Assembly: GCA_003228735.1 (NCBI GenBank) | Contig: QIFG01000048.1 | Coordinates: 1-33,682 of the forward strand | DNA length: 33,682 nucleotides | Reading direction: 5' to 3' | DNA from: Zetaproteobacteria bacterium | Lineage (GTDB): Bacteria; Pseudomonadota; Zetaproteobacteria; Mariprofundales; Mariprofundaceae | In this document: piece by piece, positions 193 through 4,096 of the stretch | How the letters are laid out: every line of letters begins with the position of its first letter | Numbering within the stretch: the stretch's first letter is position 1 | The notes under the pieces: model-generated | Told to the model about the DNA's origin: nothing | Databases searched by the model: none | What the model saw: only the letters and a program-made list of their open reading frames with translations | Program-made: the position numbers and the translations under genes

Positions 193-867
193 ATGAACAA
201 GGATAAGAAAACGCTCTATCTCTTCATCGACGAAGGTGGAAACTTCGATTTCTCTCCCATTGGTTCGAACTATTTCATCCTGACCTGTCTGGTCGAGGAG
301 CGACCATTTCCCAGTTACGACAAGCTGCGGACGTTGCGGTATGACCTGCTCGAAGGGGGAATGAATATCGAATACTTCCATGCCTCGGAAGATAGGCAAG
401 CCGTCCGCGATCAGGTGTTTTCCATCATTCAGGCCAATCTGGAGCATATCGATATCTGCTCCATGATCGTGCAGAAGAACAAGTTGAATCCCGCATTGCG
501 TGAGGAGAGCAAATTCTACACCACGGTTTTCAGCATGCTGATGAAGTGGGTCATTGAAAAGCATGTCCATGGCAAGGGATATGAGCGGGTGATTTTGTTT
601 ACCGATTTGATGCCGGTTGCCAAAAAGCGAAAGGCCATGGAGAAGGGCGTGAAGTCCGAACTGACATCCATATTGCACGAGGGTGTGGAGTATCGGATTT
701 ACCACCACCAGTCGAAATCCAACCTCAATCTGCAAGTGGTGGACTACTGCAACTGGGCGATCTATCGGAAATGGTCGCGGGGCGACACCCGCTCATACAA
801 CCTGATCAAGGGTGGAATCGATGCTGAATGGGATGTTTTCAAAGATGGAAGCACAGAATATTACTAG
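193..867 (+). CDS. DUF3800 domain-containing protein
   Basis: A 224-residue protein with the DUF3800 hallmarks: an N-terminal strand ending in an acidic pair (FIDEGGNF, residues about 11-18) and a C-terminal VVDYCNWAIYRKWSRGD segment typical of the family. No signal peptide or membrane helix is visible, so it is probably cytoplasmic. The biochemical role of DUF3800 is not established; conserved acidic residues have led to suggestions of a nuclease-like fold, and members often sit in accessory regions. The start has GGTGA shortly upstream (GCCTGGTGAA before ATG). It stands alone, flanked on both sides by strong inverted repeats that may be structured RNA, and is unrelated in role to the leucine gene next door. 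Confidence 0.85.
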   Translation: MNKDKKTLYLFIDEGGNFDFSPIGSNYFILTCLVEERPFPSYDKLRTLRYDLLEGGMNIEYFHASEDRQAVRDQVFSIIQANLEHIDICSMIVQKNKLNPALREESKFYTTVFSMLMKWVIEKHVHGKGYERVILFTDLMPVAKKRKAMEKGVKSELTSILHEGVEYRIYHHQSKSNLNLQVVDYCNWAIYRKWSRGDTRSYNLIKGGIDAEWDVFKDGSTEYY

Positions 868-879
868 CCAGAAATGCGA

Positions 880-936
880 CCACCCCGGCTATCCCTCGAA
901 GGGGAAGAACTCCATGAGTTCTTGTTACCGGGGTGG
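880..936 (+). ncRNA. candidate three-way-junction RNA after the DUF3800 gene
   Basis: Thirteen bases after the DUF3800 stop, CCACCCCGG (880-888) is perfectly complementary to CCGGGGTGG (928-936). Enclosed are two adjacent hairpins: CCCT-CGA-AGGG (893-903) and AAGAACT-CCATG-AGTTCTT (905-923). Together they form a compact three-way junction of 57 nt. No T-run follows, so it is not a standard terminator. The neighbourhood suits a DUF3800-associated RNA motif. Confidence 0.5.
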
Positions 937-966
937 AACCTTTAACTGATGAGCCGGATTATGGGT

Positions 967-1067
967 TCCCCTGCAGGAGAAGGCAAGCTTGGTGAAGATC
1001 TTGATAAGGTCTGGCTTGCGTTATTGGCTTATTGGCAGGCTGGCTTGAGATACAGCGATGCAGGGGA
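967..1067 (+). ncRNA. second branched inverted-repeat structure after the DUF3800 gene
   Basis: TCCCCTGCA (967-975) pairs perfectly with TGCAGGGGA (1059-1067). Inside, GCAAGC (983-988) pairs with GCTTGC (1014-1019), and AGATCTT (996-1002) pairs with AAGGTCT (1006-1012, one G-U) around a 3-base loop. This accounts for much of the gap between the DUF3800 gene and the end of leuA. It could be a separate RNA, part of one RNA with the preceding junction, or a palindromic repeat. Confidence 0.4.
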
Positions 1068-3325: not shown

Positions 3326-4096
3326 TTATTCAGAACTTCCTTTATGCTCCCCGCCCTTGCGCCGGGCCACCCGGTATCTCAGTGCCCGTTGACGCTGCCA
3401 GACGCTGATCAGTGGGCCGTGCAGGCAATAGGCTGAAGCCAGCACAAACAGGTTGATATAGGGATCGGCCACAATGAGCACCAGCACGATCAACATGCCC
3501 ACCAGCGACACAAAGGGGCGGCGGCGGCGCAAATCCACATCTTTGCCCGAAATAAAACGAACACGGCTGACCATCAGATAGGCCAGCGTTACTGCAACGC
3601 CAAACCACAGCCATGATACGGGTTCGGCCACCATTTTTTCATGGAAAAGCACCGCTGTGCTGATCAGCATTGCCGCCGCCGGTGTCGGCAATCCCTGGAA
3701 GTACTGCTTGTCCTGATGCGCCAGTTGTGTGTTGAAACGCGCCAGTCTGAGGGCGGCGCAGGCGGCAATCAGAAAGGCCGCCAGCCAACCCAGTTTGTTC
3801 AGAGGCGTCAGCGCCCACAGATAGATCAGCACAGCCGGGGCGATGCCGAAGGAAAGCATATCGCACATCGAATCATATTCGGCCCCGAAGGCGCTCTCGG
3901 CCTGCAACAAGCGGGCCACCCGCCCATCCATAATGTCGAATATAGCCGCCACGACGAGAGCCCAGGCGGCCAGTTCAAACCGCCCCTGAATAGCGGCAAT
4001 CAGGGCATAGAAACCGGCAAACAACCCGGCTGTGGTAAACAGACTGGGCAAAACATAAATGCCGCGAGCCTTTGTTCCGTCTTTCTTATCAAGCAT
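3326..4096 (-). CDS. pssA: CDP-diacylglycerol--serine O-phosphatidyltransferase
   Basis: A 256-residue inner-membrane enzyme that joins serine to CDP-diacylglycerol to give phosphatidylserine, the precursor of phosphatidylethanolamine. The CDP-alcohol phosphotransferase signature DGRVARLLQAESAFGAEYD (residues about 57-75, then SMCD) has the DG-x2-AR-x8-G-x3-D-x3-D spacing. Several hydrophobic helices precede and follow it. The ATG overlaps the psd stop codon by 8 bases, so the two genes are translationally coupled and the product is handed to the decarboxylase encoded just upstream. The C-terminus is basic and hydrophilic. Confidence 0.95.
   Translation of the reverse strand: MLDKKDGTKARGIYVLPSLFTTAGLFAGFYALIAAIQGRFELAAWALVVAAIFDIMDGRVARLLQAESAFGAEYDSMCDMLSFGIAPAVLIYLWALTPLNKLGWLAAFLIAACAALRLARFNTQLAHQDKQYFQGLPTPAAAMLISTAVLFHEKMVAEPVSWLWFGVAVTLAYLMVSRVRFISGKDVDLRRRRPFVSLVGMLIVLVLIVADPYINLFVLASAYCLHGPLISVWQRQRALRYRVARRKGGEHKGSSE

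Follow-up and report, generated by a model that had tools for sequence, protein, structure and literature searches.

A covarying three-way-junction RNA, apparently encoded by a small gene of its own, accompanies DUF3800 genes in many bacterial phyla

Introduction

The RNA motifs associated with DUF3800 genes, the original description of which is said to be that of Weinberg et al. in 2017, are catalogued, and in the literature that we consulted we found no explanation for them. The PADLOC family DUF3800_VII, which we take to be the DUF3800 effector of type VII retrons, is presumably also tied to a noncoding RNA; the loci described here differ from such retrons in that no reverse transcriptase occurs among their leading neighbour families. 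Published work assigns DUF3800 proteins an RNase H fold in which the catalytic residues are rearranged, and links them to noncoding RNAs and to Cas12a2 and VI-F loci (PMC10910872, PMC12669027).

In another defence system, the abiF-motif RNA RCd22 neutralises the protein AbiF through direct binding (PMC12373285). The pair studied here resembles that system in that a motif RNA is encoded next to a defence protein, but the abiF RNA consists of two repeats on the upstream side and AbiF does not have an RNase H fold. The type III toxin-antitoxin systems ToxIN, CptIN and TenpIN would be similar as two-part modules of a nuclease and a structured RNA, although their RNA is upstream, repeated and co-transcribed, whereas here it is downstream, convergent, apparently equipped with its own promoter and usually single. 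In TnpB and IscB systems the RNA carries a variable guide at the end of the element, whereas none is attached to the core of the present RNA. The anticodon nuclease PrrC of EcoprrI is encoded between hsdS and hsdR and is held by the restriction complex. The DUF3800 genes described here often occupy the same position; to our knowledge PrrC has no RNA partner, whereas DUF3800 has a candidate for one.

Results

A branched fold conserved downstream of DUF3800 genes

The window, by which we mean the whole stretch of 33,682 nucleotides of Zetaproteobacterial DNA that was analysed, contains a DUF3800 gene followed, 12 nt past its stop codon, by a structured element with a convergent leuA gene on its far side (Table 1). 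An earlier note had read this element as a 9-bp closing stem enclosing two hairpins, a fold improbable by chance, and folding returned precisely that shape, with minimum free energies of −30.8 kcal/mol on the plus and −31.6 kcal/mol on the minus strand. Compared with dinucleotide shuffles the z-scores were −4.3 and −4.7, respectively, with 0 of 200 shuffles equally stable, so that the chance claim held on either strand, which the fold suits equally well. The third stem (P3), given in the note as 7 bp, has 8 bp on the plus strand, and the 7 bp apply to most relatives, in which the outermost pair is A.C in the minus-strand reading. The plus strand lacks a T-run, as claimed. Since the element is present in a single copy within the source genome, a dispersed repeat was ruled out.

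Table 1. Features of the DUF3800 gene and its RNA (positions in the window)
Feature	Position	Strand	Details
DUF3800 gene	193..867	+	224 aa; Pfam PF12686 E 1e-9; PADLOC DUF3800_VII E 1e-14
Small-RNA three-way-junction core	880..936	-	Fold; covariation (10 + 92 sequences); strand test
P1 closing stem	880-888/928-936		9 bp
P2 hairpin	893-896/901-904		4 bp
P3 hairpin	905-912/916-923		8 bp on +
Putative small-RNA transcript	868..951	-	Predicted start ~951, predicted end ~868; fold z −4.5; T-tract statistics
Predicted sigma70 promoter of small RNA	958..986	-	−35 TTGCCT 986-981, 17 nt, −10 CATAAT 963-958

An initial single-sequence search of the genome contigs gave no matches. The element was found in 7 of the 74 genomes of the source family, being preceded by an intact DUF3800 gene in two other genomes of that family (G050 and G007), and the same architecture occurs on Phaeobacter and Ruegeria plasmids (protein identity 46% and 40%). 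A covariance model was built from ten copies, and a search of 399 genomes with it (R1) retrieved three further copies, each after a DUF3800 gene. We then searched 84,980 genomes for proteins similar to this DUF3800 and examined the best 80 of 157 relatives; the RNA was directly downstream of DUF3800 in all 80 of these loci, a linkage that applies to the sampled DUF3800 subfamily and not to DUF3800 proteins at large. The sampled carriers span Proteobacteria, Verrucomicrobia, Omnitrophota, Planctomycetes and others. Among viral contigs, four of five had the RNA after DUF3800 and the fifth had a weak match. Beside remoter DUF3800 relatives (34% identity) we saw diverged three-way cores, in L156 (2587-2628) and L150 (3717-3761).

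In a MAFFT alignment of ten sequences, 92% of the cells in stem positions were paired, and 10 of the 21 base pairs had changed on both sides. The corresponding values for 92 sequences were 96.4% and 16 of 21, in an alignment that was fitted to the model and so leans towards the structure, a bias from which the MAFFT alignment is free; controls in which the 92-sequence alignment was slid gave 45-58%. Two-sided compensatory changes filled 261 cells of the larger alignment, a number reached in 0 of 500 shuffles. The junctions of the core are conserved as well (TAG and TGAC, minus strand).

The proposal that the DUF3800 protein and a small trans-acting RNA form a module is strongly supported by the linkage, the covariation and the apparent promoter of the RNA (see below), and the covariance-model check downstream of DUF3800 genes that the note had called for recovered the structure throughout the sample. 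A structure upstream of the gene, which the note had counted as part of the module, lies outside the conserved unit, whose homology begins near the start codon.

The RNA appears to be a separate gene convergent with DUF3800

In its plus-strand form the closing stem has 25 A.C mismatches and 0 G.U pairs; on the minus strand, the mismatches become G.U pairs. Over all stems of 31 clustered representatives, the plus-strand reading gave 11 A.C against 1 G.U (p = 0.006). A plus-strand RNA was rejected on this wobble bias.

The promoter listed in Table 1 is the sole promoter-like site within 800-1150. Across 88 loci, the score for sigma70-like promoters on the minus strand, just to the right of the element, averaged 7.8, compared with 4.3 in shuffled sequence, 3.7 on the other strand and 2.4 when taken 150 nt away (p ~1e-11, a value that overstates independence as the loci are related in groups), and many of the relatives' promoters are near consensus, such as TTGACA-16-TATAAT in L112. 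On the minus strand, the 12 positions after the closing stem contained a group mean of 5.9 T, against 3.4; the window's own terminal U-tract is weak (CATTTCTGG), and the T-run is longer in most relatives. The flanks of the core are also conserved (AAGGTTCC on the 5' and GGTC on the 3' side).

The wobble bias, the promoter-like sites on the minus strand and the enrichment of T after the stem therefore indicate, at the level of sequence, that the functional strand is the minus strand and that the RNA is a separate small gene convergent with DUF3800. The earlier description of the RNA as lying directly after the DUF3800 gene thus stands for its position, but not in the sense of a shared message.

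A sister family of DUF3800-IX

Rfam gave no match in the window at the gathering threshold. Below it, DUF3800-IX (RF02968) matched on the minus strand with 21.1 bits, against a gathering value of 36.8. None of 28 relatives reached the threshold of any Rfam DUF3800 family, ten relatives had no match to an Rfam DUF3800 family at E<=1, and at gathering the relatives yielded only tRNA and int-alpA. The window RNA shares with RF02968 the three-way junction, a long GC closing stem followed by a U-run (weak in the window), the TAG in the last junction and the strand, but its hairpin sequences differ and its match remains sub-threshold. In genome G098 a true RF02968 RNA, preceded by TTGACA and followed by U7, is convergent to a DUF3800 gene, a likeness in layout that comes from this one example (L157); a second RF02968 match (L158) had no DUF3800 gene linked within the stretch read. 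Given the sub-threshold match, the results for the 28 relatives and the layout in G098, the window RNA is a sister family of DUF3800-IX: its general kind, a conserved structured RNA beside a DUF3800 gene, is known, and the family is uncatalogued in Rfam. In L143 (3811-3877 and 1185-1274), an int-alpA RNA (RF02996) follows the DUF3800 RNA at a distance of ~80 nt, with a sub-threshold sRNA-Xcc1 match nearby.

The DUF3800 protein is predicted to be an RNase HII-like nuclease

A sequence search of the PDB with the DUF3800 protein gave no matches. Its AlphaFold2 model (pLDDT 90.9) had RNase HII (1eke; E 3.8e-6, TM 0.55) as the nearest PDB fold, followed by terminase nuclease and Argonaute domains; RuvC and Argonaute PIWI were among the structural matches with an RNase H fold. 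D13, E14, D138 and D184 are invariant among 50 relatives, as would fit the acidic active-site residues of RNase H enzymes; we infer that they correspond to residues of RNase HII. The model thus points to an RNase HII-like nuclease.

Compact units in defence islands, with duplicated flanks and decayed members

The DUF3800-RNA pair is found in defence islands and frequently separates hsdS from hsdR in type I restriction operons, with HsdS upstream in 13 of 77 loci and HsdR downstream in 22 of 76. DUF3800 and the RNA move together as a compact unit of ~0.75-1 kb. Verrucomicrobial units are 85-91% identical in DNA over ~745-785 bp, and in most pairs the similarity sets in at the start codon and ends 5-20 nt beyond the RNA.

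Of 83 loci, 10 had a gene end duplicated on the two sides of the unit, whereas the controls gave 4 cases among 297 pseudo-units and 0 among 83 swapped flanks. Duplicated gene ends flank the unit in L070 (104 bp, 99%), L071, L082, L091, L121, L128, L066 and L035 (genome G376). The duplicate is often the 5' end of an hsdR-like gene, on the left of the unit, or the 3' end of a gene, on its right. We assigned by eye the duplicated ends in L071, L091 and L121 to hsdR-like 5' ends; in G050 a methyltransferase 5' end is duplicated and in G376, where the unit stands alone between nagZ and scpA, the nagZ 3' end. The duplicate copies in G050 and G376 differ mainly at synonymous sites (counted by eye), which points to an origin in two coding lineages, the pattern that horizontal transfer leaves when one flank is homologous. 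Relatives with nagZ-scpA and without the unit exist, and their comparison gave no exact junction, because they are only ~60-73% identical in NagZ. The suggested likeness to mobile elements thus gains partial support, from the duplicated flanks and the compact transferred units.

Several loci retain only part of the pair. The DUF3800 gene is truncated at its 5' end in G055, G057 and G015, where the 3' pieces begin near codons 121, ~45 and 201, respectively; in G052, where gene and RNA are both decayed, approximately the last dozen codons are left, as judged by eye. The truncated genes of G055 (L013/L003), G057 (L016/L006) and G015 (L015/L005) are fused to other sequence, including TIR and DNA methylase, and are still followed by an intact RNA. 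On a Phaeobacter inhibens plasmid (L021, 3998-4061), the RNA follows an unrelated 62-aa ORF without DUF3800, and its neighbours are TniQ-type transposition genes and an integrase. L088 and L139 have an intact RNA but a broken DUF3800 frame (near codons 54 and 172, respectively); these could be pseudogenes or assembly errors. Since both partners have decayed in G052, the loci with RNA but no full-length protein (G055, G057, G015 and P. inhibens) are no proof of lasting selection on the RNA by itself.

Discussion

For this uncatalogued RNA family, which spans many phyla, we now have an assigned strand, a putative promoter and a covariance model, together with the predicted nuclease fold and four invariant acidic residues of the neighbouring protein and a recurrent location in restriction operons. 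The RNA and DUF3800, found together in many bacterial phyla, are probably a module complete in itself that passes from genome to genome and acts in defence or in the manner of a toxin-antitoxin system.

As its mechanism, an RNA-controlled nuclease resembling a type III toxin-antitoxin system fits best, because of the universal pairing in the sampled subfamily, the constitutive-looking RNA and the defence neighbourhoods; we consider the chances that it is right to be about even. The ~80-nt three-way-junction RNA (868-951, minus strand) would be made constitutively from its own promoter, and free RNA would bind the DUF3800 nuclease directly and hold it silent. A disturbance such as phage infection might then free the nuclease, so that phage or cell would be stopped. 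Transcription, binding, inhibition and trigger are all proposed steps; for a motif RNA that silences a defence protein, RCd22 and AbiF are a proven precedent. The convergent, downstream and usually single-copy layout, unlike that of classic type III systems, speaks against this resemblance, and the occurrence of the RNA without full-length protein in G055, G057, G015 and P. inhibens may speak against silencing. The RNA might just as well be a cofactor that activates the nuclease. Whether the RNA silences or activates the DUF3800 nuclease is a directly testable question.

Activation would be expected if the RNA were an obligatory cofactor, a scaffold or guide holder for an RNA-requiring effector in defence or in the unit's own mobility. 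The protein of this subfamily is essentially never without the RNA (among the best 80 of 157 relatives), and the Argonaute PIWI and RuvC matches of its predicted fold would suit such a role. We nevertheless find it doubtful, as the conserved blocks abut the stem on either side, leaving no variable guide-like segment, and the predicted transcript start allows just ~5-15 nt before them. A guide-bearing RNA was rejected on the conservation of these flanking blocks.

A minimal mobile or homing element is another possible, though unlikely, reading of the unit: the nuclease would cut the end of a target gene, and repair would copy in the nuclease gene and the RNA under one-sided homology. The closely similar Verrucomicrobial units, with similarity mostly lost at their edges, the excess of flank duplications over both controls, and the 5'-truncated genes with the RNA kept (G055, G057, G015 and G052) would follow from such a process. 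However, copy number is low, with one unit per genome nearly everywhere, there is no fixed target, the synonymous differences in G050 and G376 point to ordinary transfer through homology at one flank, and defence islands recombine likewise without dedicated machinery. That the unit spreads itself in an RNA-dependent manner, its nuclease opening the ends of target genes, frequently hsdR, so that repair copies the unit in from the RNA side, we regard as distinctly improbable; if true, it would account for both the duplicated gene ends and the 5'-truncated DUF3800 genes that retain the RNA.

The RNA might instead only regulate DUF3800 expression as a type I-like antisense to the 3' UTR, to which it is convergent and fully complementary. 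Such a role requires no conserved fold, and the covariation together with the minus-strand wobble bias argues for selection on the folded RNA itself, making this reading quite improbable. An attC-like site, at which a gene cassette would recombine through folded DNA, is hardly credible: gene and 3' structure do travel together and a tyrosine recombinase adjoins the unit in G050 and P. inhibens, but the minus strand carries a predicted promoter and a U-tract, the RYYYAAC/GTTRRRY boxes are absent from the aligned flanks (by eye), and the phage-integrase family accounts for just 4 of 77 upstream neighbours.

Tandem copies of the RNA were seen in two loci only. In L100, a second, more diverged copy lies ~170 nt further on. 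In G530 (L155, ~3350-3776, minus strand of the locus), three copies follow one DUF3800 gene, of which one is cut by an N run and the two complete ones have the consensus-like promoter TTGACA-17-TATAAA.
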